From the NCBI GenBank assembly GCA_025360125.1, contig JANYCU010000045.1, positions 1 through 64,000 of the forward strand: DNA of 64,000 nt. Direction: 5' to 3'. The position numbers and the translations under genes were made by a program. Below the pieces are notes generated by a model. It searched no databases. It was not told where the DNA came from and was given only the letters and a program-made list of their open reading frames with translations. The stretch is from Armatimonadota bacterium. GTDB lineage: Bacteria; Armatimonadota; Fimbriimonadia; Fimbriimonadales; Fimbriimonadaceae. Positions 11,431 through 26,600 of this stretch are shown one piece after another. Position 1 is the stretch's first letter, and each line of letters begins with the position of its first letter.

Positions 11431-12987
11431 ATGAGTTTGGTGAGCAAAGTTGGGAGAAAGCGGCCACGAGCACGAATCGCGCTCTTGGTTCTCTACACCG
11501 TTCTCACCCTCGGCGCGCTTACGACTCTATACCCATTTGTCCTAATGGTGAGTACGGGCCTAAAAGGGCCGACTGACCAGAGCGATAATTCTCTGGTCCC
11601 AAAATACTTCGGCGACAACCAAGAGCTTTTGGCTAAGTATTTGGATGACAAATATTCGGGTGAAGCCGGAATCATCGCCAGCACCCGAATTGGAGATCAA
11701 TCCAGCGAAGTTCAAAAATACAATGACTTCCTAATGGCTTTGCCTCTGGACCAATGGACGGCGGGATTTAAGCTTGCCCCGAACCAATTAAGCAGCAAAC
11801 TGATGGTTCGTTATCAAGCGTGGTTGCGCACCAAGTTCTCATCGATTGATGATTTGAACCGGGCATATGTGGAGGAAAACGTGGCGTTTCAGACCGTACC
11901 TGCTCCTTCTGAGCTGCTTGAGAGGGCGACGTGGAAGTCAGCCAACGACCAGAAGTATCGGGACTGGTTGGAGTTTAAGGCGACCTTGCCTGCCGAATTT
12001 CGGATTCCGGTCCGCCGGACGCGACTTTGGCAGGAGTACTTGAAGGTGAAGTTCAAGAATCGGATTGACGACGTGCCTGATTCGGTCAAGGTCAAGAAGG
12101 TCAAGAAATTTGAGGAAATTGAGATGCCACCAGTGTTGCTCAATGGGGTTGATTCCACCAAACCTATGGACCTTATGGACGAATTCAAAAAAAGCACTCC
12201 TGATCGGTATATGCAAGGCACATCTGAAGATTTGTGGGCATTAAATTCGTCCTCGGCGATGCCAATTGCGGCAGCTGAGAAGGCCTATGTTGCCGAGCAT
12301 GCGTCCGAATTGAAACGTGAGTTTGCGAGCCGAAATTATCGTTTTGTTTTGGACTACATTTTGCTTCACGGACGAGCCGTTTGGAACACGTTCCTTTTTT
12401 GCACTTTGGCGGTCTTGACTCAGTTGATTGTGAATCCGATTGCCGCGTATGCGTTGTCGCGGTACCCGATCAGGTCTTCGGGAAAGATCTTGTTGTTCTT
12501 GCTCGCGACGATGGCCTTTCCGGCCGAGGTCGCGATGATTCCATCGTTTTTAATGCTGAAAGAGCTTGGACTTCTGAATACCTTTGCGGCCCTGATCTTG
12601 CCGGGCGCGGCCAGCGGGTACATGATCTTTCTGCTCAAGGGATTCTTTGATTCGTTGCCGCCAGAGCTTTTTGAGGCCGGACAGTTGGATGGCGCGAAGG
12701 AGTCGACATTGATGATGAAGGTTGCGCTGCCGCTGAGCCGTCCGGTGTTGGGTTACTTGGCGCTATTGGCGTTTATGGGTTCATATTCCACATTCATGTT
12801 CGCGTTCTTGGTTATTCAGGACCAGAAGATGTGGACGTTGATGGTGTGGATCTACCAGTTGCAGACGTCGGCGCCGAAAGCGGTTGTGATGGCGGCTTTG
12901 GCTTTGGCGGCGATGCCGACCTTGATCGTCTTTTTGTTGGCTCAGCGGGTGATCATGCGCGGAATTGTGTTGCCGGGGGAGAGGTAA
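11431..12987 (+). CDS. MalG-type sugar ABC permease with large extracytoplasmic insert
   Basis: A 518-residue inner-membrane permease. TM1 is at about 15-40. The conserved MalG-family core resumes at about 305-515 (TM2 near VWNTFLFCTLAVLTQLIVNP). The EAA cytoplasmic loop that docks the ATPase is at about 415-433 (EAGQLDGAKESTLMMKVAL). Typical family members are about 270-300 residues, so residues about 45-300 are an insert in the first periplasmic loop. This insert contains two related stretches: QKYNDFLMALP...RYQAWLRTKFSSIDDLNRAY and QKYRDWLEFKATLP...LWQEYLKVKFKNRIDDV. No partner permease, ATPase or binding protein is adjacent. Substrate is probably a carbohydrate. Confidence 0.85.
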   Translation: MSLVSKVGRKRPRARIALLVLYTVLTLGALTTLYPFVLMVSTGLKGPTDQSDNSLVPKYFGDNQELLAKYLDDKYSGEAGIIASTRIGDQSSEVQKYNDFLMALPLDQWTAGFKLAPNQLSSKLMVRYQAWLRTKFSSIDDLNRAYVEENVAFQTVPAPSELLERATWKSANDQKYRDWLEFKATLPAEFRIPVRRTRLWQEYLKVKFKNRIDDVPDSVKVKKVKKFEEIEMPPVLLNGVDSTKPMDLMDEFKKSTPDRYMQGTSEDLWALNSSSAMPIAAAEKAYVAEHASELKREFASRNYRFVLDYILLHGRAVWNTFLFCTLAVLTQLIVNPIAAYALSRYPIRSSGKILLFLLATMAFPAEVAMIPSFLMLKELGLLNTFAALILPGAASGYMIFLLKGFFDSLPPELFEAGQLDGAKESTLMMKVALPLSRPVLGYLALLAFMGSYSTFMFAFLVIQDQKMWTLMVWIYQLQTSAPKAVVMAALALAAMPTLIVFLLAQRVIMRGIVLPGER

Positions 12988-13143: not shown

Positions 13144-13827
13144 ATGGCCACCGCTGAAAAGACCAAGGATCCGATTCCCGTCCTCACGTGGACGTTGATT
13201 CTGCTGAACGTCATCATTTACTTGTGGGACCGCAAGATGGGCCTGATGGGCTCGGGTACGGTTTTCAGCGATTTAGCGATGCGGCCACCGGAGGTTATTT
13301 CGGCCATCACGGGTGCATCGGGCGGGGCGGGAACGGATCGATTTCCGATTGTGACCCTGTTTACCTCGATGTTTTTGCACGGTGGATTCCTCCATTTGTT
13401 TGCCAACATGATGTTTTTGGCGGTGTTTGGTCCGCCAGTTGAGCAGGCGGTGGGACCCTGGCGATTCGTTCTTTACTACCTAGCTTGGGGGGTTTTTGCG
13501 GCAATCTGCCACATCTATGCGTCGCCTTTGAAAAATGTGCCGACTTTGGGCGCCTCCGGTGCCATTGGTGGAGTGCTGGGATGTTACTTCCTGTTGTTCC
13601 CGTCAAATCGGCTCCATGTCTTGATCATGGGAATTTGGGAAATTGAAACGAAAGCATGGGTATTGCTTGGACTTTGGTTTCTGTATCAAATCTTTGTTAC
13701 CCAAGAAGGAGTGGCGACTTGGGCGCATGTTGGCGGGTTCTTAGCGGGTATGGTTACGGTGCTTGTCATCGGGGGAAGGGATGCTATTTTGCGTCATCAC
13801 CCTGAACTTATCGAAGCAGACGACTAA
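13144..13827 (+). CDS. Rhomboid-family intramembrane serine protease
   Basis: A 227-residue polytopic membrane protease. The catalytic serine is S138 in TLGASGAIGGVLG (family GxSG), the histidine is H195 in WAHVGGFLAG, and the HGGFLHLFANM segment (79-89) with N88 supplies the oxyanion/His-Asn part. About six TM helices are visible, the usual rhomboid core. Rhomboids cut TM segments of membrane proteins; the substrate is unknown. The gene is followed three bases later by the DUF5693 gene, heading a nine-gene run. The 156 bases upstream contain no gene, only short imperfect repeats such as CTCGC-CAA-GCGAG. Confidence 0.9.
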   Translation: MATAEKTKDPIPVLTWTLILLNVIIYLWDRKMGLMGSGTVFSDLAMRPPEVISAITGASGGAGTDRFPIVTLFTSMFLHGGFLHLFANMMFLAVFGPPVEQAVGPWRFVLYYLAWGVFAAICHIYASPLKNVPTLGASGAIGGVLGCYFLLFPSNRLHVLIMGIWEIETKAWVLLGLWFLYQIFVTQEGVATWAHVGGFLAGMVTVLVIGGRDAILRHHPELIEADD

Positions 13828-13830
13828 GGT

Positions 13831-15699
13831 ATGGCGTTCCTAAAATCTTCAAAATTCTTTTTGCTAGCGGCCTTGTTGACGTTAGCGTGTTGCCTCGTCT
13901 CGGTTCGAAAGCGCATACACGTCGAAAATGCCAATAAGAAGGTACTTGTTGCTACTGAGCTCGATAACTTGCAATCTTTAGCGGCGGCTCAAGGGCTCAC
14001 TATTGATCAAGCATTGACGATCCTCGAAAAGCAGGGTCTCAATGGAGTAGTGATCCCGGAGGAAACCATTGGTGAATTGGTTTTAGACGGACGAGCCCAC
14101 CTAAACGGGCTGACTGTTCAGCACGAATCTCAAATTTCGACGATGGCCTTCGAGGACAACGATACGGTTAAGCGAGTGGTGAGGGGGCTTTCGATCCGAT
14201 TCGGAAAGTTGGTTCAATCAACCTCGCTCAGGGACGGAAAATTAGCGATGCCCGCCGTGGATACGGCGACAATTCGAACGACCTCAATTGGCCTTGATCC
14301 CCAACTAGCGGCTATTGCCCAGAAGCATCACTTAACCATCATTGGTCGGTTTTCGAATCCGGTTGGCATCAATTCGAAGGCGATTATCGAAACGATCAAG
14401 TGGGCGAAAGATTCCGGTGCACGCATTTTCCTCGCCCAAGGCGAGCAAGTGCTTGGTCGACGCGACTCATTGGACACCCTTCGAGATAGTCTTTCGGCAA
14501 ACGGAATTTTGTACGCATCCCCGGAGTTTGCCAAGCTGGGTGGCGACCAAGAAATGTTGGTGAAGATGCCCGAACAAGTGGTTCGGCTTCACTCGGCACA
14601 GACGGCAGAATTGGATAAGCTGACCGAGGATGCTGCCCTCGAGCGATATTTGAAAGCGGCGAGCGAACGAAACATGCGAGTTTTGCTGGTCCGCAATATC
14701 TCGCAAGCATCGGATGCACCACTAGATGCTTTCGGGCTCTTTCTAGCCAAACTCTCCGATGGACTTGCTCATAAAGGAATGGCGCTGGGCGATCCGGCTC
14801 CTTACGCCGACCCTGAGGTAAGTAGGGTCATTCGAATTCTCATTGGCCTCTTTGGCGGAATCAGCGCGCTGTGGGTTGCGGTGCAGATGTTTGGTGAAAA
14901 GAATGGTTTGATTTTGGGCGGTTTGGGAGCCTTAGCAATTTTGGGCGGATCGGCCTTGCACGGGGCTGGGCTTGAAGTTGCTGCGCTACTGTTATCGATG
15001 GTCTTTCCGATTGGATCATATTACTGGCTGAAGTTGGAAAAGCCCAACCCTTATGTCGGGTTAATTGGCCTTGCAGCGCTTTCGATGATTGGCGGGTTTT
15101 GCGTAGCCGGACTAATGAATGGAATCCCTTATTACATCCGGGCTGAAGCATTTTCCGGGGTCAAAATTTCGGTGTTCTTACCAATTGCCATTGTTGGGGT
15201 CGTAGCTTTCGCCGACTTCAATAACTTTAAGGATTCGATGCGCGAACCGATCACGTGGGGCACGGCAGGTCTTGGTGTCGTTTTGTTAGCGGTGATTGGC
15301 CTCATGATGATGCGAACAGGAAATGATAACCCCAACACGGTGAGCGGGGGCGAATTGGCGTTTCGGGGAATTTTAGAGCAGATCCTTCCCGTTCGACCTC
15401 GATCGAAAGAATTCCTGCTCGGATTCCCAGTGTTGACGTTTGGCCTTTTCATTCTTCACCGGGCGAAGTACGATCCAAAAGCACTCGGAAAGTTTTCCGG
15501 TTGGGTTTCGCTGTGCCTAATGCTCGGGTTTGTTGGGCTAACCGACTCGGTAAACACGCTTTGTCATCTTCATACCCCTGTTATGGTGAGCTTCTTACGC
15601 GACATAATTGGATTGATCATCGGCGGAATTTTTGGTTTAGGTTTGTGGTTCGTATTTAAGAAGAAAGTGGTGGCGATATTAGGAGCAAAAGTTGGCTAG
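13831..15699 (+). CDS. DUF5693-family multi-pass membrane protein
   Basis: A 622-residue membrane protein. One TM helix is at about 7-23, followed by a roughly 300-residue extracytoplasmic domain (e.g. TELDNLQSLAAAQGLTIDQALTILEKQGLNGVVIPEETIG) and a C-terminal block of about eight TM helices (335-612). The layout and its position directly before csaB match DUF5693 proteins, which are known by neighbourhood to go with CsaB in cell-wall-polymer modification; its biochemical role is not established. It overlaps the csaB start by 8 bases. A plausible inference is a membrane partner for synthesis or export of the pyruvylated polymer. Confidence 0.75.
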   Translation: MAFLKSSKFFLLAALLTLACCLVSVRKRIHVENANKKVLVATELDNLQSLAAAQGLTIDQALTILEKQGLNGVVIPEETIGELVLDGRAHLNGLTVQHESQISTMAFEDNDTVKRVVRGLSIRFGKLVQSTSLRDGKLAMPAVDTATIRTTSIGLDPQLAAIAQKHHLTIIGRFSNPVGINSKAIIETIKWAKDSGARIFLAQGEQVLGRRDSLDTLRDSLSANGILYASPEFAKLGGDQEMLVKMPEQVVRLHSAQTAELDKLTEDAALERYLKAASERNMRVLLVRNISQASDAPLDAFGLFLAKLSDGLAHKGMALGDPAPYADPEVSRVIRILIGLFGGISALWVAVQMFGEKNGLILGGLGALAILGGSALHGAGLEVAALLLSMVFPIGSYYWLKLEKPNPYVGLIGLAALSMIGGFCVAGLMNGIPYYIRAEAFSGVKISVFLPIAIVGVVAFADFNNFKDSMREPITWGTAGLGVVLLAVIGLMMMRTGNDNPNTVSGGELAFRGILEQILPVRPRSKEFLLGFPVLTFGLFILHRAKYDPKALGKFSGWVSLCLMLGFVGLTDSVNTLCHLHTPVMVSFLRDIIGLIIGGIFGLGLWFVFKKKVVAILGAKVG

Positions 15700-16756
15700 G
15701 ATTGTACTTGCGGGATATATTGGTTGCGGAAACTTGGGCGATGACTCAGTCATGATCGGAGTTGTCGATGGGCTCGGAACCGGACATGAATATCTGGTTT
15801 TAAGTGGCGACCCGGACGACACCTTCCGCTATTATTCGATGCGCGGTGTGCCCCGAAAGAACCTAAAAGATGTTGAAGCGGCCATCAAGGAGTGCGATGC
15901 TCTAATTTTCCCTGGTGGCTCGATTTTTCAAGACGTAACGAGCGCGAAGAGTACGATTTACTATACGGGCCTCATTAAGATGGCCAAAAAGCATAACAAG
16001 CGTGTGATCTTGTTAAACCAAGGTGTTGGACCTTTGAACACATGGATTGGCAGGACTCAAACTCGCCTCGCGATGAGCTTGGCAGATTTGATCGTGGTTC
16101 GCGATCCTGGTTCTTTGAAATTGCTTCATGAGTTGGGCGTAGACAAAAAAATTCACGTTGGGGCGGATAGCGCATTGATTCTTCGAGAGCCAGTACGCGA
16201 CGACGACGGTTCGTCGTATGGAGTTGGAGGAATGAAAGCCGTTGCGTTGGCTCCTCGGCCTTGGAAACGGAAAGGAGTCGATATTGTGAACCTATTTGGC
16301 GAAACGTCTCGACTGCTGTTTAATGCGGGCTTTGTCCCTACCCTGATAGAAATGGACCCATTTGAAGATGGGAAAATGCTGGAGGATATCACGAAGCAAC
16401 AGGGCGGGCGCATCCCGTTCCTTCGGAACCTTGGCTCGTCTCGGATGGTGCAGTTTCGTTTGGCCCGCATGGATGGTGTCATCGGAATGCGGCTTCACGC
16501 GGGGATTTTGGCGACAACGGTTGGCGTTCCCCCGCTCATGTTGAATTACGATCCGAAGGTTGCAGCGTTTGCCCGGCAGATCGATATTGGACCTGCTCTC
16601 ACGATTGAGGGACTCACCCCCCAACGATTATTTGAGACATTTATGGAACATCATAAGGCAAAAGATGCCCATAAGCTTGTTATCCTAAAGAAGCGCGAAG
16701 AATTACGAGACCAAGCCATGAAGGGAATCGAGCTCGCAAACAACTTCTTTAAGTAG
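15692..16756 (+). CDS. csaB: CsaB-type polysaccharide pyruvyl transferase
   Basis: A 354-residue GT-B-like pyruvyl transferase of the WcaK/CsaB family. It opens ARIVLAGYIGCGNLGDDSVMIG, the family's N-terminal glycine-rich motif, and carries GGSIFQDVTS (70s), LLNQGVGPL and the C-terminal GMRLHAGILATTVGVP motif containing the conserved RxH. CsaB transfers pyruvate to secondary cell-wall polysaccharide, creating the anchor for SLH-domain proteins. Start is TTG at 15692, overlapping the DUF5693 stop. The next gene follows 8 bases later. No SLH protein is visible in this window. Confidence 0.88.
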   Translation: MARIVLAGYIGCGNLGDDSVMIGVVDGLGTGHEYLVLSGDPDDTFRYYSMRGVPRKNLKDVEAAIKECDALIFPGGSIFQDVTSAKSTIYYTGLIKMAKKHNKRVILLNQGVGPLNTWIGRTQTRLAMSLADLIVVRDPGSLKLLHELGVDKKIHVGADSALILREPVRDDDGSSYGVGGMKAVALAPRPWKRKGVDIVNLFGETSRLLFNAGFVPTLIEMDPFEDGKMLEDITKQQGGRIPFLRNLGSSRMVQFRLARMDGVIGMRLHAGILATTVGVPPLMLNYDPKVAAFARQIDIGPALTIEGLTPQRLFETFMEHHKAKDAHKLVILKKREELRDQAMKGIELANNFFK

Positions 16757-16764
16757 CAAAATCG

Positions 16765-19323
16765 ATGTCAAAACTTCTTCTCGTGTGTGGGCTTGGGATT
16801 CTGCCGCTCCTTGGTGTTGCCCAAGGCAACACGCCACACAGCAACGATTGGTGGGATCGAGAAGTTTGGTCGCGGCTGGCCTACAGCGGATCGCGAACCC
16901 TCGGTTACCAAAACTACAAGTTTGAAGGCGATGCCGAAACGTTCGGATCGTTGACGAACTATGGAACTGGCCTGAAGCACTTTACCGACATTGGCAGCTT
17001 CTCGGTTCAGGGCAACAAGGTACTTGGAATCTTTGATTTTCGTGCTGCATTTACGGATAACCGGTTCAGCGATCCCGAGCAGCAACAGTACACCCTGAAT
17101 TACAAACGTGGCTTTTATGACTTGAGTTACGGAACGATTCAAGCTTCGTTGTTGCCAGGAAATCGATTCATTAACTTCAGTCGGTCCCTGAAGGGATTTG
17201 TTGGCGACTATAAGAAGGGACGCTTTGAAGCAAAGGCACTGACGAGTACTGCGCGCGGCGCCGCCCGGACGATTACGATTGAAGGAAACAACACGACAGG
17301 GCCTTACTACTTAGCCGCAGGGCGCATCATTGGAGGTTCAGTTAAGATATTGCTCGACGGAGTGGAACTGAGGCAGGGAGTTGACTATGTAGTCGATTCG
17401 GCGGTTGGTTCGATTACCTTTGCAAACCGGACGATTCCGCCCACCAGTACGATTGTGGCTTCATACGAGTCTTACGACGTTACGGGCTCAAATGGTACCG
17501 TTACGGGTGTCGCCGCGACGTATGATTTAGGCAAAGCGGGAAAGATTGGGCTTACTTCTGAACAACAGAAGACAGGAACTAAGTCGGCCACCAATGAGCG
17601 GATTGAGCTGTTCCAAGGATTTGGAAATATTGGAGATCAATATAATCTTCAATTTGAACCAATTCCAGCGTCGATCGTCGTGACGGTAGACGGCATTGTT
17701 CGAACGTTTTCGGTGGTAGACAACGGCCTAGCGGAGTTCTATTTAAGTCCAACTGTTCCCAGCATTGTCATCTCGAAAGTAGCGGTGTTTTCGAGTCAAA
17801 CTCTTCAGATTCGCTATATTCCAAAGCTCATTTTGACGGTTGACGGTGACCGTTCGGTCACGGGTTTTAATTGGAGACTTCCTCTGGGAGGGAAAGGCAC
17901 CAGCAGCTTCCTCAATTACTCCCGAGCCACGGGGAGGCTTTCCGGTTCCGCTCCTTCGAGCGGAGAAGCGCAAGGCGTCGATTTGAACCTCAAGCAGGGC
18001 AAGAGTGAATTCAAATTGGGATTGCGACGAATTGATCCTGGCTTTCGAACCGTTGAGCAAACCGGATTCAATCGGAATGAAGATGTCGCAGAATACTCGT
18101 TTAACTACGGGACCAAAGGTATTGGCGCCACAGCAAATACGTCGAATAGCTTGATTTCGATCAACAACGGATCGAATGCGTCGGCTAGTCGGGTCGTAAA
18201 CACGGGATTGAACCTCACTTACAGTGACCCCACAAATATTAGCCGAAACATGTCGCGTTCTCAGGCGCTCAGTTGGACTCAGACCAATGTCCACAACACC
18301 GACAATACGCGGTTGACGACGCTTGGGTTCAAGGAGAATTATCACGCTAAAAAGCTGACTTTTGGCTATGGGGTGGAGGACTTGACCGGGCGTGGCCGGG
18401 TGGACGGAACCATGAGCGGATTGGGAATCCAGAGTTTCCACACCAATGCCACCTACGATGCCGGAAAGAATTGGGCCGTGACTGTGTCGGCAGCTAAGAG
18501 CAACGTCAAGACAGACAAGGACAAATCGGACGGCTATGACTACTCTCTACGGGCGAATATGGCCCAGACTGGCCCTTGGACCTTGGCGGCAGAGTACGCC
18601 TTGAGCGATTCAGGTGCCTTGGCTTCCCTTGGCGGGTTTCTCAATGGAAATTCCTTGGGATTTGGGAATAACGGATTTGGTGGCTCTGGAGGCAGCGGAA
18701 CCTTGAGTACCGGGCAACTGAAGGCCAGGCGCACTGGCTTTAGTGCCATCCATCAGGCAGGCGACAATTTTGCGATCACGTTTGCGTATAGCAATACGAC
18801 CGCGATTGGTTCTTCGACAAACAACGCGAAAATTGATGTATTGAGCATGGATGCCAGTTGGAGGATCAATTCGACTCATTCTTTTCAGCTTGATTATTCA
18901 CGCGTCAAATCAGACTTTCTGACCAACAGTGGTGGGACGGGAAATTCGGACGTCATCTCTGGACATTTTCAGGGCGAGCCTGGAAAGCTATGGCAATATT
19001 CGCTGGGATACAGCGTTTTGAAGTCAAGCGGTGCTCAGCTTAGTCAAGATAACTTGGGCCTTTCCTTTGGACTGAATTACTTGGTCGCTGCTCGCCAACG
19101 GTTGTTCTTCAACGCTGGGACGAGTAAGACTCGCGGTCTTTACCCTCAGAATGACAAGTCAATCGAAGCTGGATACGGTTATATGCTCGGGGCCGGAATT
19201 GGATTAGTCGGCAAATATAGCTACCGAAATCTTGAGAACCTTGATCCGGGTTCTTCTGCGGGCACTTTTAGGGCCAAAGGCTTTAGCATTGAACTTAAAT
19301 TTGATCTTGCGAGTCGACGGTGA
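16765..19323 (+). CDS. Predicted outer-membrane beta-barrel protein
   Basis: An 852-residue secreted protein with signal peptide MSKLLLVCGLGILPLLGVAQG. From about 30 onward it is built of short alternating strands rich in Tyr, Asn, Gly and Ser, typical of an outer-membrane barrel. Around 180-260 and 290-370 there are two Ig-like/plug-like stretches with ITIEGNNTTGPYYL, ILLDGVELRQGVDYVVDSAVGSITF and IVVTVDGIVRTFSV. The C-terminal 350 residues look like barrel strands, ending FSIELKFDLASRR, where the usual terminal aromatic residue is absent. I recognise no named family. Its place between csaB and lipoprotein genes supports an envelope role. Confidence 0.7.
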   Translation: MSKLLLVCGLGILPLLGVAQGNTPHSNDWWDREVWSRLAYSGSRTLGYQNYKFEGDAETFGSLTNYGTGLKHFTDIGSFSVQGNKVLGIFDFRAAFTDNRFSDPEQQQYTLNYKRGFYDLSYGTIQASLLPGNRFINFSRSLKGFVGDYKKGRFEAKALTSTARGAARTITIEGNNTTGPYYLAAGRIIGGSVKILLDGVELRQGVDYVVDSAVGSITFANRTIPPTSTIVASYESYDVTGSNGTVTGVAATYDLGKAGKIGLTSEQQKTGTKSATNERIELFQGFGNIGDQYNLQFEPIPASIVVTVDGIVRTFSVVDNGLAEFYLSPTVPSIVISKVAVFSSQTLQIRYIPKLILTVDGDRSVTGFNWRLPLGGKGTSSFLNYSRATGRLSGSAPSSGEAQGVDLNLKQGKSEFKLGLRRIDPGFRTVEQTGFNRNEDVAEYSFNYGTKGIGATANTSNSLISINNGSNASASRVVNTGLNLTYSDPTNISRNMSRSQALSWTQTNVHNTDNTRLTTLGFKENYHAKKLTFGYGVEDLTGRGRVDGTMSGLGIQSFHTNATYDAGKNWAVTVSAAKSNVKTDKDKSDGYDYSLRANMAQTGPWTLAAEYALSDSGALASLGGFLNGNSLGFGNNGFGGSGGSGTLSTGQLKARRTGFSAIHQAGDNFAITFAYSNTTAIGSSTNNAKIDVLSMDASWRINSTHSFQLDYSRVKSDFLTNSGGTGNSDVISGHFQGEPGKLWQYSLGYSVLKSSGAQLSQDNLGLSFGLNYLVAARQRLFFNAGTSKTRGLYPQNDKSIEAGYGYMLGAGIGLVGKYSYRNLENLDPGSSAGTFRAKGFSIELKFDLASRR

Positions 19324-19331
19324 AATGAATC

Positions 19332-20672
19332 ATGAGAATAAACGTTACTAATGTTATGAAACGCAATTGGATTGCTTTTGGAATTTTGATTTTAACCATT
19401 TTAGGTTGTGGTGGTGCAGGCGTAGGCGTCGGCAGCGTGGCTGGTTTAGTTCTCGATATTAACGGGAACCCAGTTCGAGGTGCTCGCGTCTTTGTTGATG
19501 ATGGTCAGCTTCGAGAGACGCTCAGCAACAGTTCTGGCTCTTACAATATCGCTGGAGTTTCGGCCCAGGACATTTTGATCAAAGCTGAATATGACAACGG
19601 ATCAACCTTCTTTCAGGGTCAAAACCTAGCTCGAGTCTTCGATAAAGAGCAAGTAAATAGCCACAATATTGTCTTAATTCCCTCGAACCAAATTGCAAGC
19701 CTTCAAGGGTTTGTCCAAAGTTCGAGTGGACCTCGAATTGCTGGCGCCCGAATTTCGGCAAAGCCTACGAATGGCAGTCAATTGACTTCGGTTCAGGCAT
19801 TGGCTGATGAGAACGGGAATTACGTATTAGGCGGTCTTGCTGGTGGAGTAACGTATCAAGTCATGGTGAGCTTCCCCGGATATCAATCCGCGGATGTAAC
19901 CCGGACTCCATCCGCCGGATCACCGATTACCGTCAATTTTTCGCTCGGGCTCAATGGTGACCCGCTGCTTCCTTCGCCGAAAAATTTGAGCCTCACCGCT
20001 TGGACCTCACCCGTCGAATTGACGCGAGATGTTGAGAAGTCGAAGGCGATGAATAATGTTAAGAAGTTCATCGAGCCTCGATATCGAAAATCGTCTACGA
20101 GTCGACTAACGAGTCAAGGAAATCCGGTTGAGGTCCAACTTTATTGGGATAAGTTTGACAGCCAGCAAATCCTGGGATACACCATTAGTCGAAAGCGAGG
20201 TTCGGATCCTTACCAAGGCGTGGACTTCTTGCGCGACCCGCTTGCCGAGTCGTTCATGGATAGCGACATTAATTTGTTGGACGGGATCAACTACAGCTAC
20301 ATCGTGAATGCGACGAACACGAATTATCCAGATACGAATAATTCGCTCAGTGATGACAGCAACGCAGTCTCTGTAACTCCGCTAGGAGATATGAATGTGC
20401 TGCCTGTAACGTTCGCAGGAAGTAACGTTACGTTCCATTGGAGTGCAGTGTCGAACGCGGCGAATTATACGATCTACGTATTTGACGTCTATCCCGGCAT
20501 CATGGTCAGCTCGTACGCCAATAACTTTAACAGTCCAGCGACGGGAACATCTTGGACCTATAATTTGACACCTTTAGCCAGCGGACATCTGTATTACTAC
20601 CTTATAATGGGTAGTAACTCTGGCGACTCGGCCAGAACTCTCAGCGCGATTGGGTCGTTTACCGCTCCTTAG
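19332..20672 (+). CDS. Lipoprotein with carboxypeptidase-regulatory-like and FN3-like domains
   Basis: A 446-residue predicted lipoprotein. The lipobox is LTILGC, with the acylated Cys near residue 27; an internal ATG at residue 9 gives a more usual signal length. Two carboxypeptidase-regulatory-like (transthyretin-like) domains follow: GSVAGLVLDINGNPVRGARVFVDDG... and ASLQGFVQSSSGPRIAGARISAKP... . The C-terminal half has fibronectin-III-like features (VQLYWDKFDSQQILGYTISRKRGSDPY and VTFHWSAVSNAANYTIYVFD). Such proteins are structural or binding components at the cell surface. It is 8 bases from the barrel gene and 24 before the next gene. Confidence 0.75.
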   Translation: MRINVTNVMKRNWIAFGILILTILGCGGAGVGVGSVAGLVLDINGNPVRGARVFVDDGQLRETLSNSSGSYNIAGVSAQDILIKAEYDNGSTFFQGQNLARVFDKEQVNSHNIVLIPSNQIASLQGFVQSSSGPRIAGARISAKPTNGSQLTSVQALADENGNYVLGGLAGGVTYQVMVSFPGYQSADVTRTPSAGSPITVNFSLGLNGDPLLPSPKNLSLTAWTSPVELTRDVEKSKAMNNVKKFIEPRYRKSSTSRLTSQGNPVEVQLYWDKFDSQQILGYTISRKRGSDPYQGVDFLRDPLAESFMDSDINLLDGINYSYIVNATNTNYPDTNNSLSDDSNAVSVTPLGDMNVLPVTFAGSNVTFHWSAVSNAANYTIYVFDVYPGIMVSSYANNFNSPATGTSWTYNLTPLASGHLYYYLIMGSNSGDSARTLSAIGSFTAP

Positions 20673-20696
20673 TCGTCAAACAAAAACCGAAAAAAC

Positions 20697-23426
20697 ATGC
20701 TACGCCGCCTACTTCTGTTGGCAGTTGCCCTTTCCGGGGCATCTGCCTCCTTTGGACAATCAAGCCTTTTCAAAATTGATCTTGGGACGAGAGTCGCTGG
20801 GTCACCAGTGGACCTTGCCGATGCTTCGTACAAGCTCTATCAGCAGAATCTGTGGAATCTGAACTATCTGAGTCGTAATGCGCGGCAATCTCGTGGTTTG
20901 ATCCAATCAAAGGCCCCGTATATTGCGCCCGCGATGATCCGGTTTACCAAAGGGAATCAGGTTTACAAGACGTATGGAGGGACCCGAGGAGGAGGTAGCG
21001 GCAACACCCTTACTCTGTCGATCGACGCAAGCTTCAACACCACAGGCGACCCAACCCGGGTTGCGTTTATGCAGAACGTTTACGATACGGCAAAGTTGAC
21101 CATCGAATCGATTTTTGGCGACGCTGCAATTCCTGGAACGGTTAACGTGATCAATGCTGATGCAACGATTGGCGATCGGAACGCGATTACGGGCGGTTAC
21201 TATTTGCCGAACAATGGTTCGGGCGGTCGAGAAATTCGACTCCCTCTCAACGCAAGTCGAGAGGTTGCTGCCGTCGCCCTGATTCATTGCATCTTGCTGG
21301 CTTATTTGCCCGACCCTGCTTACGCGTACGATGGCTATTTTGAAGGTCTGGTTCGAGCAACTACGCAAAAAATCGTGCGGATTCCGGCGGCAATTCCGGC
21401 AGGACTTGATCAAGAAGTTATTGAGAGCGTTTTAGAACAAACGTACGAAATTGGTGCATTTTACGATTGGGCAAACCAGAAGTCACTAGGAGGGCCCCGG
21501 TTTATCGCGCCTAATCTTTTGAGCGCACCCATTGTTCAGGGAACTCGAGGAGGACTGTTCTTTCAGCGGTATCAGATGTCGGGAACGGTTTGGGAAAAAG
21601 TCCTGGCCGAATATCCGACGTTCATCAAGAGCCTCAACCTTTTGTTGCGAGCAAACCCATCGGCGGCCAATGACGCTTCTCAGCTAGAATCTCTCTCCAG
21701 CAGCATTGTTGGGGCGGGAACGATCGAAGGGGATGCTTATTCGGATTGGGTCCGAAAGCAGCATATTTTAGACACTCAACTCACTGTCGGGACGAAGCTT
21801 CATTCCTTAATTACTCCGATCACGAGCGGACTTTCTGGCACCGATTTTGGCGTCTTCAATATTGAGGCGACCTTCTTTTCGACAGACAGTTCAGGTAACG
21901 AAACACTACTATCGAGTACTGCATACCCAGTCTTTTGGGATCGCACTTACAAGCGGGTCCTTCCTTCAACTCAAGATGAAGTGATGGATATTGCGGCTTC
22001 GTATGGATCGGTCGTGCCGAACTTTACCAATAATAACGGCGGGGTGCCTTATCGTATTGCCCTTGATCTACCCGTTCAGGATCGGATCGTTCGTCAATAT
22101 TTACCTGCGGGTAGCATTGCAACCCCAGCGTCCACGACCGTCAGTGACTTTTATGGCACCGTTGTTGGATTCGCAGTTCCGCTGGGAACGTCGCTAATTG
22201 TTCGGGTTCAAAACGGATCGGACACTTTTGATGCACCAGTTAATGCCTATGCTTTTGGGCTCAATGTTGGTACGGCAAACTTTTTGGCGTCCCGGTCATT
22301 AACCGTCCGCCTGATCAGAAAAGACTCGATGAACATTGAATCTGTATTACTGACTAAAACGGTCAACAAGGGCCCGGGACCGCTTTGCATTCAGATTGGC
22401 AATGAGCCAGTTTCGACAACAAGCTTCCCTTCTGGGCTATCCGGCGGAATCCAGATGGTTGGCTTTACGGGGAATCCCCTTTATTCCGGACTGGAATCAA
22501 TTTTGTCATCCAATAACTTCCTCGCTGCACGATATAGTTCTTCGAGGACTGCCTACGACCTCTATCCAAATTCAGGAACAGTGATGGGGAGCCAAGGATA
22601 TTTCATCCGAGTCCCGAGCTCAGGGCTTCCCTCTTGGAAAGCACGAATAGAAAGCGGCACGGCGGTCTCGGTTGCCTTGCGGCCCGGCTGGAATATGATT
22701 ACGTGTCCACTGGGAGTTTCGACACCGTTTTCGAACGTTGACGTTGTTCATACGACTGAGTTCCCTCGAACTTATCTCGGAGCTTCGGGAAATGATACGG
22801 GCGACACCAGCCCTCCGCTTCTCGGTAAGAATATTTTCCAATTTGTTCCGGGTGCTAATGACACATTTTCTGGAGTTCCAGAGGGTGGATCTTTTGTCCC
22901 AGCGACGTCGTTTGAGCCTGGCATCGGATATTTCGTTCGATGCTTGGCCCCAGAAGGTGCCGTTATGCTGTTCAATCCAAATGCGTCAGGGTCTTTTGTT
23001 CGTCAATCGGCTTCCTTGCCATTTGTGCACCTATTGAACGTACAAGTTCGGCGAAATGGCGAGTCATCGAATGCGTTGCTAGGTCAAGCCAACGGCGCAA
23101 CGGATGGGTTTGATGCTCGATTTGACAGTAACATTCCTCCATCAATTGGTGGCCTGCAGGTGACGGTTGACAACGGAGATTTAAGGTATTCGGATATTCG
23201 GAAACCGGGTCCTAGATTGACTTACAAGGTGAAGGTAGACGGTTGCGAGAGTGGCAAGCATTACACCTTTGACTTTTCGACCTTACAAGGGTTTGCTCCG
23301 CAGATATTGGTGAAAGACCTGAAAACTAATTTGACTCAGGCATTCCAAAAATTGACAGGCTCGTTTACCTTCTTGGCAACGAGTACAACGATGACGTTCG
23401 AAGTAACCGTCAAGGGTGCCCGATGA
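20697..23426 (+). CDS. Large secreted protein of unknown function, possibly a degenerate peptidase
   Basis: A 909-residue secreted protein with signal peptide MLRRLLLLAVALSGASASFGQ. Residues about 130-240 resemble the active-site region of gluzincin peptidases: REVAAVALIHCILLAYL takes the place of the HExxH helix, and YDGYFEGLVRATTQ resembles the downstream glutamate helix. The usual second His and catalytic Glu are absent, so enzymatic activity is doubtful. The C-terminal 500 residues are beta-rich, with two similar segments: GGIQMVGFTGNPLYSGLESIL and NMITCPLGVSTPFSNVDVV. No named family recognised. It overlaps the next gene by 4 bases. Confidence 0.65.
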   Translation: MLRRLLLLAVALSGASASFGQSSLFKIDLGTRVAGSPVDLADASYKLYQQNLWNLNYLSRNARQSRGLIQSKAPYIAPAMIRFTKGNQVYKTYGGTRGGGSGNTLTLSIDASFNTTGDPTRVAFMQNVYDTAKLTIESIFGDAAIPGTVNVINADATIGDRNAITGGYYLPNNGSGGREIRLPLNASREVAAVALIHCILLAYLPDPAYAYDGYFEGLVRATTQKIVRIPAAIPAGLDQEVIESVLEQTYEIGAFYDWANQKSLGGPRFIAPNLLSAPIVQGTRGGLFFQRYQMSGTVWEKVLAEYPTFIKSLNLLLRANPSAANDASQLESLSSSIVGAGTIEGDAYSDWVRKQHILDTQLTVGTKLHSLITPITSGLSGTDFGVFNIEATFFSTDSSGNETLLSSTAYPVFWDRTYKRVLPSTQDEVMDIAASYGSVVPNFTNNNGGVPYRIALDLPVQDRIVRQYLPAGSIATPASTTVSDFYGTVVGFAVPLGTSLIVRVQNGSDTFDAPVNAYAFGLNVGTANFLASRSLTVRLIRKDSMNIESVLLTKTVNKGPGPLCIQIGNEPVSTTSFPSGLSGGIQMVGFTGNPLYSGLESILSSNNFLAARYSSSRTAYDLYPNSGTVMGSQGYFIRVPSSGLPSWKARIESGTAVSVALRPGWNMITCPLGVSTPFSNVDVVHTTEFPRTYLGASGNDTGDTSPPLLGKNIFQFVPGANDTFSGVPEGGSFVPATSFEPGIGYFVRCLAPEGAVMLFNPNASGSFVRQSASLPFVHLLNVQVRRNGESSNALLGQANGATDGFDARFDSNIPPSIGGLQVTVDNGDLRYSDIRKPGPRLTYKVKVDGCESGKHYTFDFSTLQGFAPQILVKDLKTNLTQAFQKLTGSFTFLATSTTMTFEVTVKGAR

Positions 23427-24292
23427 TACGAAATATTCTTTTTGGCTTGCTTGTTTTGGTGCTCGTTTCCTGCGGAGGCGATAGTCCAATTCCCTCCATT
23501 CACATTTCTGGGCGAGTACTCGATATTTCGACGGGTGGGCCAACGACCACGGCATCCAGTATCCAGTCCAGTACCTCTACGGTTAGTACTTCACTCGTTG
23601 ACGGATCCTTTATTGTTGGGGGTTCGTCAGGAGAAATTGGCCTCTTGGTGAGTCCACCTTCCATCTTGGGATATCCAACGTTTTCGTACACTTTTCAACC
23701 GCTCATTCAGAGTCAAAATGATGTTGGGGATCTATGGGTTGGACCTCAACAGGTTGAGGTCACAGGGGTCGTTCAGAATGCAGCTGACAATTCGCCAATT
23801 GCCAATGCTTTGGTGAGATTTGGTGGCCAAAAAGGCACAACAGACGCTACAGGTACTTTTCACATTTTGCACGTGGCGTATTCCACAGCCAACACGTCGA
23901 GCTTCTTGGGCCTTACAGGTCGGGCCGAAGCAACCAACTTCTTGGCCAACGAATTTACGGCGGGCGGCAATACTGCCGTCGCGGGCGTGGTCGCGGTCGG
24001 CACCGTTCTGCTTTCGCCAGTTGACAGCAATACTCCACCTCCCCCTCCGTTTGACTTGTGGGGTCTCATTGCGCCCTCTAACCTTGCGAGCGGAACGATT
24101 GTGACGCTGAAGGATTCGGTGGGAACTCCGATACGGCGATTTACTGTTGGAGTTAATGCCCGGTATCAATTCTGGGTTCCAGCTGGACAATATAGTATTG
24201 ATTTTGCGAATGGTACGCACACAGCACCGACTCAAAACGTCACACTTAATAACAACACCGATGTCATCCGAAGAGACGCAACGCTTAATTAA
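23423..24292 (+). CDS. Lipoprotein with carboxypeptidase-regulatory-like domain
   Basis: A 289-residue predicted lipoprotein: the signal peptide ends VLVSCGG with the lipid-bearing Cys near residue 17. A carboxypeptidase-regulatory-like domain is at about 105-190 (VEVTGVVQNAADNSPIANALVRFGGQKGTTDATGTFHI). A second beta domain closes the protein (SIDFANGTHTAPTQNVTLNNN). It resembles the lipoprotein at 19332 in design. It overlaps the upstream gene by 4 bases and the next start (24261) by 32 bases, showing close translational coupling. Confidence 0.72.
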   Translation: MIRNILFGLLVLVLVSCGGDSPIPSIHISGRVLDISTGGPTTTASSIQSSTSTVSTSLVDGSFIVGGSSGEIGLLVSPPSILGYPTFSYTFQPLIQSQNDVGDLWVGPQQVEVTGVVQNAADNSPIANALVRFGGQKGTTDATGTFHILHVAYSTANTSSFLGLTGRAEATNFLANEFTAGGNTAVAGVVAVGTVLLSPVDSNTPPPPPFDLWGLIAPSNLASGTIVTLKDSVGTPIRRFTVGVNARYQFWVPAGQYSIDFANGTHTAPTQNVTLNNNTDVIRRDATLN

Positions 24293-25742
24293 GTCAAAAC
24301 AATTCAAAAAATGGATCGCCATTGGTTGTTTAGTCGCCACTGGCGCCGGAATTACAGGAATCGCAATGCGGGTCATGAAGCAGGACCCGCTAGCCACTTT
24401 TAAACGAACCTTGCCGGACGAATTGCCAGATTCGGTTGCGATACGCTCCACCGACTCTCAATTCAATCACTACGACGAAGGCAAGCCAAAGACCACTTGC
24501 AACGTCAAAACCATCGAAATTGCCCAAAACCGTCAGATGTACACCTTTACGGGCATAACGAACGGGAAGCTTGAATGGAAGAACGCGATGTACCAATTCA
24601 ACGCCGAGCGGGGTAGCTGGAATGGCTTTGTGAAGAAGCTCGTTTTAAGCGGAGCGTCTAAGTTTAAAGGCAAAGACTTTGACCTTTCGAGCGACGAGCT
24701 GACGTACGACGAGAATCAGCGCACGTTGAACATGATTCATCCCGTGACCGGGACGGCCTTTGGCGGCAAGCTTTCAGTCGCAAGCTTTCGTTATGAATTG
24801 GACCGCGAATCCTTCAAGGCCGGAAAGGGCGAGTGGATTGGCATTCCTTCGGGAGGAATGCAAAAGGATGTTCCGATTCAGACCAATCGAACGATTTGGA
24901 GTTTTACCGCTGACGAAACGGAAAGAAAACCAGAAGTAAAAGATGTCACCTTTTACACCAAAGTTCGGGCAACCGATGGCGACATCATTTTGGTTGCGCC
25001 TAAGATGGAAGTCAATAAGAAGACCGATGTTATTACCGCTACTGGACGAGTTCAATATTTTGGAACGAAAGCCAACCTCATCGCGGATAAGATCGTGATC
25101 TATCAAAAAGAAAAGCGTGCGGTGTTGACCGGGAACGTGACCATGTTGGTCAAGCCGAAAGACAAGCAAGAAGAGCCCGCCAAAGAGGTTGAACTTACCC
25201 CATTGCCACCAGCGGTGCCCGATTCCATTTCATCAACCCGACCGCCAGCCCCCGACGATGAGTCGACCAAGAAGAAAGAAGAAGAAATTCGGAGCATGAA
25301 GAATTTGCGCCAGTACCCCCTGATTATTCTTGCTCCCGCGATCGAGTATTGGTACAAGAAAGGCGAACGACACGCCATTATCACCGGCAACCCTCAGGCT
25401 CGCCAGGATTTGCCCGAAAGCGGTTGGCGATACGTTTGGGCCGACAATGCGAAATATGATGGTGAAAAAGAATTGCTAGCCTTGTTTAGTGCACCCACAA
25501 AAAAGGACGTCATCATGAAGAACTCGGTCGGCGACGAGATGTACGCCGAATCGGGCGTGCTTTCGACGAAGGAAGACGACGACACTTACTCGTTTAAGAA
25601 GAGTCGAGGCACGGCTCCCGTCCACGATGATGACCTACCCACTTCGGACAAGAAGAAGGGTGACGGTACAACTGGCACAGGCACAGATAAAGGCAAGGGC
25701 AAAGGCGGCGGACTGAATGGTCCAATCGGGCGCAAAGCTTAA
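24261..25742 (+). CDS. LptA/OstA-fold envelope protein with LptC-like N-terminus
   Basis: A 493-residue protein. The chosen ATG at 24261 gives a short cytoplasmic start and one TM helix at about 17-36, then a beta-jellyroll region. Residues about 250-310 are classic LptA/OstA sequence (DIILVAPKMEVNKKTDVITATGRVQYFGTKANLIADKIVIYQKEKRAVLTGNVTM, described here by position rather than in full). An earlier OstA-like part begins near residue 60. The tail is Lys/Gly-rich. LptA and LptC form the periplasmic bridge that carries LPS to the outer membrane, so a role in moving lipid or polymer is inferred. The frame is open further upstream to 24147, but that part lies wholly inside the previous gene. Confidence 0.78.
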   Translation: MSSEETQRLIKSKQFKKWIAIGCLVATGAGITGIAMRVMKQDPLATFKRTLPDELPDSVAIRSTDSQFNHYDEGKPKTTCNVKTIEIAQNRQMYTFTGITNGKLEWKNAMYQFNAERGSWNGFVKKLVLSGASKFKGKDFDLSSDELTYDENQRTLNMIHPVTGTAFGGKLSVASFRYELDRESFKAGKGEWIGIPSGGMQKDVPIQTNRTIWSFTADETERKPEVKDVTFYTKVRATDGDIILVAPKMEVNKKTDVITATGRVQYFGTKANLIADKIVIYQKEKRAVLTGNVTMLVKPKDKQEEPAKEVELTPLPPAVPDSISSTRPPAPDDESTKKKEEEIRSMKNLRQYPLIILAPAIEYWYKKGERHAIITGNPQARQDLPESGWRYVWADNAKYDGEKELLALFSAPTKKDVIMKNSVGDEMYAESGVLSTKEDDDTYSFKKSRGTAPVHDDDLPTSDKKKGDGTTGTGTDKGKGKGGGLNGPIGRKA

Positions 25743-25763
25743 GATTCTGAGCATAATGTCTCA

Positions 25764-26600
25764 GTGAAGGTCTTTATTTCAGCGGATATCGAAGGGGTCA
25801 CTGGCCTCATTTCATGGTCGCAAGCCGGGCGACCGAACAGCGATCACTACGATTATGCTTTTGCGCGGAGGATGATGACGCATGACGTCAATGCTGCGGT
25901 TCGGGGAGCCCGAATTGCGGGTGCGACGCATGTGGTCATCAAAGACTCTCACGGCAACTCGAAGAACCTTCTGATTGACGAACTGGAATCTGGAGTGGAA
26001 CTAATTTCGGGCCATGGCAGTGGACGTCACGGCATGATGGAAGGCATTGACGGGTCCTTTGATGCCGCTTTCCTGATTGGTTACCACGCCAAAGCTGGCT
26101 CCGGCGAGGGAATCATGGAGCACACCTACACCGGTCGCGCGCACCGACTTTTTATTAACGAAATTGAGCTTGGCGAAATGGGACTGTCGGCGGCGACGGC
26201 AGGTCGACTTGGAGTTCCCCTGGCGATGGTGAGTAGCGATGAGAAGGGTTGTCAGGAAGCGACTTCGATGATCCCGGGCGTTCATACCGCGGTGACCAAG
26301 TTTGGAATCGGACGATATATGGGTCGCTTGCTTCACCCGTCGGAGACTGGACCGTTGATTCAAAAGACGGCAGAAAAAGCCTTGAAGAATTTGAACAAGC
26401 CGTGGACGTTTAACGGCGAATGCGTGGTTCGGCTAGAAGTGAATCGGACCGAAGACGCAGATTGGGCCGCAAGGATCCCCGGCGTGACGAGAATCGATGG
26501 CTATAACGTCTCAGTGACGGTGGATAATTACACCGATGCGCAGAGTTGGGCGGTCGTCCTGATGAGCGTCGGCCAGTTGGGAATGGGCGCGCACGATTAA
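25764..26600 (+). CDS. M55-family metallopeptidase (D-aminopeptidase DppA-like)
   Basis: A 278-residue cytosolic peptidase of the M55 family, typified by the D-amino-acid aminopeptidase DppA. The zinc ligands line up with the known pattern: D8 and E10 (SADIEGVTG), H63 (DSHGNSKN), H108 (IGYHAKAG) and E133 (INEIELGE). The candidate nucleophile/acid region is MEHTYTG at 118-124. GTG start at 25764, 21 bases after the LptA-like gene, makes it the last gene of the run. It may recycle D-amino-acid peptides from the wall; this is inference. Confidence 0.9.
   Translation: MKVFISADIEGVTGLISWSQAGRPNSDHYDYAFARRMMTHDVNAAVRGARIAGATHVVIKDSHGNSKNLLIDELESGVELISGHGSGRHGMMEGIDGSFDAAFLIGYHAKAGSGEGIMEHTYTGRAHRLFINEIELGEMGLSAATAGRLGVPLAMVSSDEKGCQEATSMIPGVHTAVTKFGIGRYMGRLLHPSETGPLIQKTAEKALKNLNKPWTFNGECVVRLEVNRTEDADWAARIPGVTRIDGYNVSVTVDNYTDAQSWAVVLMSVGQLGMGAHD

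Follow-up and report, generated by a model that had tools for sequence, protein, structure and literature searches.

The window analysed here is a 64,000-nucleotide stretch (contig JANYCU010000045.1, positions 1 to 64,000 of the forward strand) from the 4.1 Mb genome of an Armatimonadota bacterium of the family Fimbriimonadaceae. Between positions 13144 and 26600 it carries nine open reading frames (ORFs), all on the + strand, which encode a rhomboid-family protease, the membrane protein DUF5693, the pyruvyl transferase homologue CsaB, a large predicted outer-membrane barrel, two lipoproteins, a secreted protein of 909 residues (here sec909), an LptC-LptA fusion and an M55 peptidase (Table 1). 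The spacings between them are, in order, 3, -8, 8, 8, 24, -4, -32 and 21 bases, negative values being overlaps. A scan of the run for promoters and terminators gave no consensus promoter and no excess over shuffled background, so that a single transcript is suggested by the spacing alone. All statements on function below rest on sequence, gene neighbourhood and predicted structure. We propose that the core of this run builds a pyruvylated wall polymer to which the outer membrane is anchored, and that DUF5693 is most likely the polymerase or ligase of that polymer, a reading to which we assign a probability of roughly 60%.

Table 1. Genes of the run, all within 13144-26600 of the window. The coordinates of the LptC-LptA fusion use the first ATG; a longer ORF with a TTG start begins at 24147. 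HMM, hidden Markov model.
Feature	Position	Strand	Evidence or remark
Rhomboid-family intramembrane serine protease	13144..13827	+	PF01694 111 bits; first gene of phylum-wide core
DUF5693 membrane protein	13831..15699	+	PF18949 370 bits; AlphaFold2 model
CsaB, predicted polysaccharide (ketal-)pyruvyl transferase	15692..16756	+	TTG start; PS_pyruv_trans / TIGR03609 219 bits
Predicted outer-membrane beta-barrel, 852 aa, SprA-like fold	16765..19323	+	AlphaFold2 model; fold comparison; partial SprA HMM match
Lipoprotein A, lipobox ILGC, CarboxypepD_reg-like domains	19332..20672	+	HMM search; lipobox
Secreted 909-aa protein (sec909), N-terminal signal-like segment	20697..23426	+	Alignment; no Pfam/NCBIfam match
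Lipoprotein B, lipobox LVSC, weak CarboxypepD_reg-like domain	23423..24292	+	HMM score below Pfam cut-off
Membrane-anchored LptC-LptA fusion, two OstA-type regions	24261..25742	+	PF06835 and PF03968 over cut-off
M55 D-aminopeptidase	25764..26600	+	PF04951 294 bits; closely spaced, not a conserved member

Just upstream of the run, at 11431-12987, lies the gene for an ABC permease with an unusually long N-terminal part (518 aa, with the permease domain match starting at about residue 353).

The conservation of the run across the phylum was assessed from 120 DUF5693 loci, taken from whole Armatimonadota genomes and a named genome collection, which reduced to 108 distinct loci at 95% identity; adjacency was counted only in those distinct loci that had enough flanking sequence to tell. 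csaB is found directly downstream of DUF5693 and on the same strand in 98 of the 104 testable distinct loci, a linkage that is more than chance, and a rhomboid gene lies upstream of DUF5693 in 69 of 97. The order rhomboid-DUF5693-csaB-barrel-lipoA-sec909-lipoB-lptCA is kept in many Fimbriimonadaceae loci. Of the 59 loci whose downstream sequence extends at least 9.5 kb, 20 have the complete block of barrel, sec909, lipoB and lptCA. The lipoA-sec909-lipoB-lptCA block is inverted beside the core in two genomes (L063, L064) and so moves as one piece. Distant families (L034, L037, L044, L047, L126, L141, L148) have a lipoprotein gene after csaB, together with separate lptC and lptA genes; according to HMM and pairwise scores, lptC and lptA represent the unfused form of the LptC-LptA protein of the window. 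Two genomes of the family labelled f14 (G028, G042), which lack DUF5693, have csaB followed by barrel and sec909 (L075, L077), while G123, from the same genus as the window, has the core and no full-length barrel anywhere in its genome. The M55 gene stands beside the run in one other locus of the sample only (L037) and is therefore not part of the conserved unit. Two public contigs labelled as a Methanoregulaceae archaeon and as Actinomycetota (L099, L160) also carry DUF5693-csaB loci of the Armatimonadota type, and their labels look wrong.

The run is thus layered: a core of rhomboid, DUF5693 and CsaB; the LptC-LptA protein; a movable block of barrel, lipoproteins and secreted protein, which is partly absent even within the genus; and the non-conserved M55 gene. 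The first-pass annotation had described nine genes separated by at most 24 bases or overlapping, which is confirmed (spacings of -32 to +24 on one strand), and had proposed the conservation of the operon in Armatimonadota as a check; in relatives the genes do stay together, with the exception of M55. The operon is thus real, while the description of a nine-gene envelope operon overstates its unity.

The genome has a single CsaB-family match, the CsaB of the operon, which scores over the TIGR03609 cut-off (219 vs 213.1 bits). Mapped by motif and spacing, its phosphoenolpyruvate (PEP)-binding signature consists of VVRD at 135, RLH at 267 and a Lys 20 residues after the His. In CsaB of Paenibacillus alvei, residues R148, R306, H308 and K328 have been shown to matter (PMC10435577); compared with that study, the protein of the window carries equivalents of Arg148, Arg306-x-His308 and Lys328, and RLH-19-K is kept in 115 of 117 relatives. 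The operon CsaB would be expected to transfer ketal-pyruvate to ManNAc.

Candidate binding partners of such a polymer are encoded in the same genome. A search for S-layer homology (SLH) domains gave two matches (41 and 30 bits), one per protein, in neighbouring genes on contig 26. In each protein a signal peptide is followed by a single SLH domain, a helical stalk and, up to a final Phe, a long strand-rich part. This is the layout of OmpM, with stalk and barrel assigned by inspection of the sequence alone. HW(A), G and TRYE occur in both, and residues of the HW/G/TRxE type contact the sugar and the ketal-pyruvate in SLH structures bound to secondary cell wall polymer (SCWP) (PMC10628300); OmpM-like proteins have been listed for Armatimonadetes (PMC9388160). 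CsaB and SLH each occur in all 16 Armatimonadota genomes searched, as does TagA/WecG in a largely overlapping set of 16. In Synechocystis, knock-down of slr0688 suppresses pyruvylation of the peptidoglycan-linked polysaccharide and detaches the outer membrane (PMC9163127). The tether between a CsaB-modified polymer and SLH proteins that had been suggested earlier for this locus is hence supported. Neither of the two outcomes named beforehand as refuting it, a lack of SLH proteins and scattered genes in close relatives, came about: the genome has two OmpM-type porins with pyruvate-binding residues, and the genes are linked in relatives. S-layers of Bacillus and Paenibacillus are attached by a pairing of CsaB and SLH (PMC6030368), and the operon CsaB could likewise serve an S-layer made of protein and not the outer membrane; we regard this as scarcely credible here, since the only two SLH matches of the genome are both of the OmpM type, and the SLH search turned up no protein with several SLH domains of the kind usual in S-layers.

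Two further observations concern OmpM-type genes. A signal-peptide protein of 164 aa (L001:2048-2542, - strand) is similar to the stalk of OmpM; its SLH domain looks decayed and it lacks a barrel. Provided that L001 has the same orientation as contig 26, it lies between the two OmpM genes there. In genome G081, a run at L083:2655-8532 comprises LptB, LptF/G, DUF3084 and an OmpM-type SLH porin, and DUF3084 also follows LptF/G in the genome of the window (L190:4986-6539). The position of the OmpM gene in G081 is a second sign that anchoring is linked to outer-membrane building in the phylum.

The eighth gene, described earlier as LptA/OstA-like, indeed belongs to this group and can be specified as an LptC-LptA fusion, with LptC (36.5 bits) and LptD_N (32.0 bits) matches over the Pfam cut-offs. 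LpxC and LptF/G are found in 16 of 16 genomes and the Pfam models LptD and LptD_2 in none of them, nor do these two match the barrel. The barrel and the LptA-like protein might thus form the main lipopolysaccharide (LPS) exit route of the phylum, as an LptA with a substitute for LptD, but we find this very improbable. Directly beside LptF/G in the genome of the window is a 773-aa LptD candidate. Its homologues in G130 and G034 (219 and 174 bits) carry LptD_N and are likewise encoded next to LptF/G. Contig 6 carries an LptB-LptF/G set with LptC-like and LptA-like neighbours, the LptA-like gene having no Pfam match and being assigned by position only; LptB and LptF/G are on contigs 6 and 54, that is, not encoded with the operon fusion. 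Moreover, no full-length barrel turned up in six of 17 genomes, among them the same-genus G123, and all six have LpxC and LptF/G. With a separate Lpt set and a diverged LptD elsewhere, the operon LptC-LptA fusion is an extra pair. We therefore rejected the barrel as LptD, given the diverged LptD beside LptF/G, and consider it unlikely that the fusion is the main LPS bridge, given the LptC-like, LptA-like, LptB and LptF/G genes elsewhere. The first-pass annotation had also seen in the barrel and the LptA-like protein a possible means of exporting the pyruvylated polymer; this is not supported, as the barrel is SprA-like by fold and was not found at full length in those six genomes, and the Lpt protein belongs to a second set.

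The diverged LptD-like proteins beside LptF/G (L189:6112-8433, - strand; L191:2073-4409, + strand; L192:4454-6799, - strand) are missed by both Pfam LptD models, and LptD_N reaches its cut-off in L191 and L192 only.

The AlphaFold2 (AF2) model of the barrel (pLDDT 82) has about 35 strands by hand count. SprA (6h3i) ranks first in the fold comparison, with Z 19.9, 536 residues aligned over the whole length and a root-mean-square deviation (rmsd) of 6.0, while ordinary porins align over only about 230-275 residues; Foldseek with the same model returned generic barrels only. By its predicted shape, the protein would be a very large pore. Against the SprA HMM (TIGR04189) it scores 31.5 bits, compared with a cut-off of 200, over residues 178-265 only and thus not over its full length. 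SprA, the translocon of the type IX secretion system (T9SS; 6h3i, 8gl6), hence resembles the barrel in its whole-length very-large-barrel fold and in one shared region of about 90 residues, and differs from it in a chain of more than 2,100 aa, compared with 852 aa here; the HMM score of the barrel is far below cut-off. Membership of the barrel in a T9SS is not supported.

Pfam and NCBIfam HMM searches gave no full-length family for either the barrel or sec909. The sec909 family keeps a conserved region, H(C/T)LLLAY...EGxVRA, which resembles a decayed metallopeptidase helix pair, lacking the catalytic Glu and the second His. The rhomboid has GASG at 136 and AHVGG at 194, and so both the Ser and the transmembrane (TM) His, and scores 24.1 bits against a cut-off of 84 for rhombosortase (TIGR03902), which it therefore does not match.

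Alternatively, what lies downstream of csaB could be a module of its own, for secretion across the outer membrane or for the cell surface, in which the SprA-like barrel exports or displays sec909 and the lipoproteins and which merely shares a transcript with the core. The match of the barrel to SprA, in fold over its whole length and in HMM at 178-265, speaks for this, as do the inversion of the lipoA-sec909-lipoB-lptCA block as a unit and the core without full-length barrel in G123. On the other hand, no T9SS partner is shown (a search for PorV found no match in the genome, its controls being equally silent), and barrel and sec909 stay by csaB in far-apart families, including the two f14 genomes that lack DUF5693. 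We thus hold a separate module to be quite possible, leaning slightly against it.

In our view, the most informative gene of the run is DUF5693, which had been left out of the earlier interpretation and of which we found no mention in the literature searched. It is present in 147 of 151 Armatimonadota genomes; the nearest named relatives of the protein in the window come from Fimbriimonas and Fimbriimonadaceae metagenome-assembled genomes, at no more than 56% identity. Among 14 named control genomes, DUF5693 matches occur in Thermus, Deinobacterium, Thermotoga and Bacteroides, three of these four being over cut-off, and the first three of these genomes are all SLH-positive. A search of records labelled as plasmids gave three Bacillota records with DUF5693, in all of which it is clustered with csaB, and repeat searches with the Bacillota proteins gave the same three records. 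In Acetoanaerobium the order is DUF5693-csaB-tagA, in Paenibacillus tagO follows as well (DUF5693-csaB-tagA-tagO), and in Pontibacillus DUF5693 comes last (csaB-tagA-tagO-DUF5693). In P. alvei, csaB, tagA and tagO are co-transcribed as the SCWP unit, and its TagA and CsaB steps have been reconstituted (PMC6030368). The presence of DUF5693 in csaB-tagA(-tagO) clusters of Bacillota gives it a link with the wall polymer that does not depend on an outer membrane. In the Acetoanaerobium record, a sulfatase-family (LtaS-like) membrane protein is encoded directly upstream of DUF5693-csaB (L197:5123-6931).

The AF2 model of DUF5693, built from 62 sequences (mean pLDDT 94.2, pTM 0.91), has one TM helix, then an outer alpha/beta domain of the TIM/NodB-like type (about residues 34-323), then about nine more TM helices. 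With the N-terminus inside, an orientation that the loop charges broadly fit, all 25 of the 25 polar residues conserved in at least 95% of the 62 sequences are placed in outer loops or within a few residues of outer helix ends. Among them are R495, E508, R512, R522, R524, H579 and H581, and the conserved motifs include RTGN, RPRTKE and NTFCHIHTP. The best fold match of the outer domain is BH1492 (2nly, DUF610; Z 13.5, 194 residues aligned, rmsd 3.6), which we take to be a member of the divergent polysaccharide-deacetylase family; the next matches are unrelated TIM barrels, on a plateau at 11.7 and below. The outer domain filled the fold lists, in which there was no WaaL/Wzy or other relative of the TM domain, and no useful match came from searching the PDB by sequence with the barrel, LptC-LptA, CsaB and DUF5693.

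The simplest reading of this model is that DUF5693 is an enzyme acting on a flipped, lipid-linked product. A conserved Arg/His pattern is expected for the handling of a lipid diphosphate, and it is because the pattern in DUF5693 suits such a substrate that we favor a polymerase or ligase role. DUF5693 could instead serve the SCWP pathway as the flippase of the lipid-linked repeat, or its outer domain could modify or trim the glycan, for example by deacetylation. Its many TM helices would suit the former, and the nearness of the outer domain to BH1492, ahead of generic TIM barrels, the latter; yet a shared NodB/DUF610 fold shows no function, and the Asp/His/His metal site of NodB type is not evident, no Asp being conserved in at least 95% of the 62 sequences. 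For a flippase, conserved residues would be expected along the membrane path, whereas the conserved polar residues of DUF5693 are predicted on the outer side only. We consider these roles, taken together, less likely than not, and keep polymerase or ligase as the preferred one.

A similar role has been proposed for WpaA and WpaB of Bacillus anthracis, which belong to the O-antigen polymerase/ligase clan and, like DUF5693 in our proposal, would be membrane enzymes that polymerise or ligate SCWP at the outer face (PMC6030368, where these roles are called unproven). The likeness is one of proposed role only; unlike WpaA and WpaB, DUF5693 has no sequence match to the clan, and it has the extra TIM/NodB-like outer domain.

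The analysis itself shows the gene linkage and families, the OmpM porins with their motifs, the single CsaB, the linkage of DUF5693 to wall-polymer genes in two phyla and its predicted topology and conservation. From these we suggest the following pathway, in which we infer every enzymatic step, the order of the steps and anchoring as their outcome. CsaB would add pyruvate to a lipid-linked repeat in the cytoplasm, as is established for CsaB of P. alvei. Once this pyruvylated, lipid-linked product has been flipped, DUF5693 may act on it from the outer side of the inner membrane; most likely it would join the repeats or transfer them to the wall while its outer domain holds the glycan. The pyruvylated polymer would be the wall-side anchor, whose ketal-pyruvate is gripped by the SLH domains of the two OmpM-type porins, so that the outer membrane is held. 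The LptC-LptA fusion would provide a second periplasmic bridge of the OstA type, and the two lipoproteins and the secreted protein may form, with the SprA-like barrel, an accessory outer-membrane module. That LptC-LptA and the barrel module are inherited together with the core and yet are separable from it suggests co-regulation of outer-membrane building and anchoring.

Several points weigh against this proposal. The topology of DUF5693 comes from one AF2 model, and Pfam returned no match to the Wzy/WaaL clan, only DUF5693 itself at E <= 1. Three genomes of the f14 family keep CsaB and SLH with no detectable DUF5693, and the Synechococcus control has SLH and CsaB matches and none for DUF5693; DUF5693 is hence not indispensable for the pathway, and the idea of its strict co-loss with CsaB and SLH failed on the same f14 genomes. 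The wall-polymer link in Bacillota comes from three records. Finally, we found no report of enzyme activity, polymer structure or tethering phenotype for any Armatimonadota.

Compared with known systems, the run combines several familiar elements. The csaB-tagA-tagO SCWP locus of P. alvei (PMC6030368, PMC10435577) shares with it the conserved PEP-binding residues of CsaB, and other Bacillota have DUF5693 in the same cluster. P. alvei, however, is monoderm and anchors an S-layer, and in Armatimonadota tagA is elsewhere in the genome, with csaB tied instead to rhomboid, DUF5693 and outer-membrane genes. In the cyanobacterial SLH-porin tether (Synechocystis slr0688; PMC9163127), a pyruvylated wall polymer likewise holds SLH outer-membrane proteins in a diderm, with the difference that DUF5693 had no match in the Synechococcus control. 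The OmpM/SlpA tethers (PMC10628300, PMC9388160) have the same single SLH domain, stalk, C-terminal barrel and HW/G/TRYE motif; whereas OmpM of Veillonella parvula binds polyaminated peptidoglycan, CsaB predicts a pyruvylated ligand here, and the OmpM genes are outside the csaB operon. Anchoring of the outer membrane by CsaB and SLH is thus known. The operon found here is conserved but layered, and the strong new lead is DUF5693 as a candidate outer-face enzyme of pyruvylated polymer assembly.

Even for Gram-positives there is no settled account of how pyruvylated wall polymers are polymerised and attached, and DUF5693, which accompanies CsaB in two phyla and whose conserved polar residues are all predicted on the outer side, is a direct and testable candidate. 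On a broader level, we tentatively speculate, with rather less than even confidence, that DUF5693 represents a new family of membrane glycosyltransferases working at the outer face, as polymerase or wall ligase for pyruvylated SCWP and common to monoderm Bacillota and diderm Armatimonadota (probably also to Thermus/Deinococcus and Thermotoga); it would then be an unrecognised, ancient and general enzyme of SLH-based anchoring, whether of S-layer or outer membrane. The envelopes of Armatimonadota have received little study, and the operon offers a concrete pathway of outer-membrane anchoring for this phylum. It also agrees with the idea that anchoring by SLH and pyruvate predates the split of one- and two-membrane bacteria.

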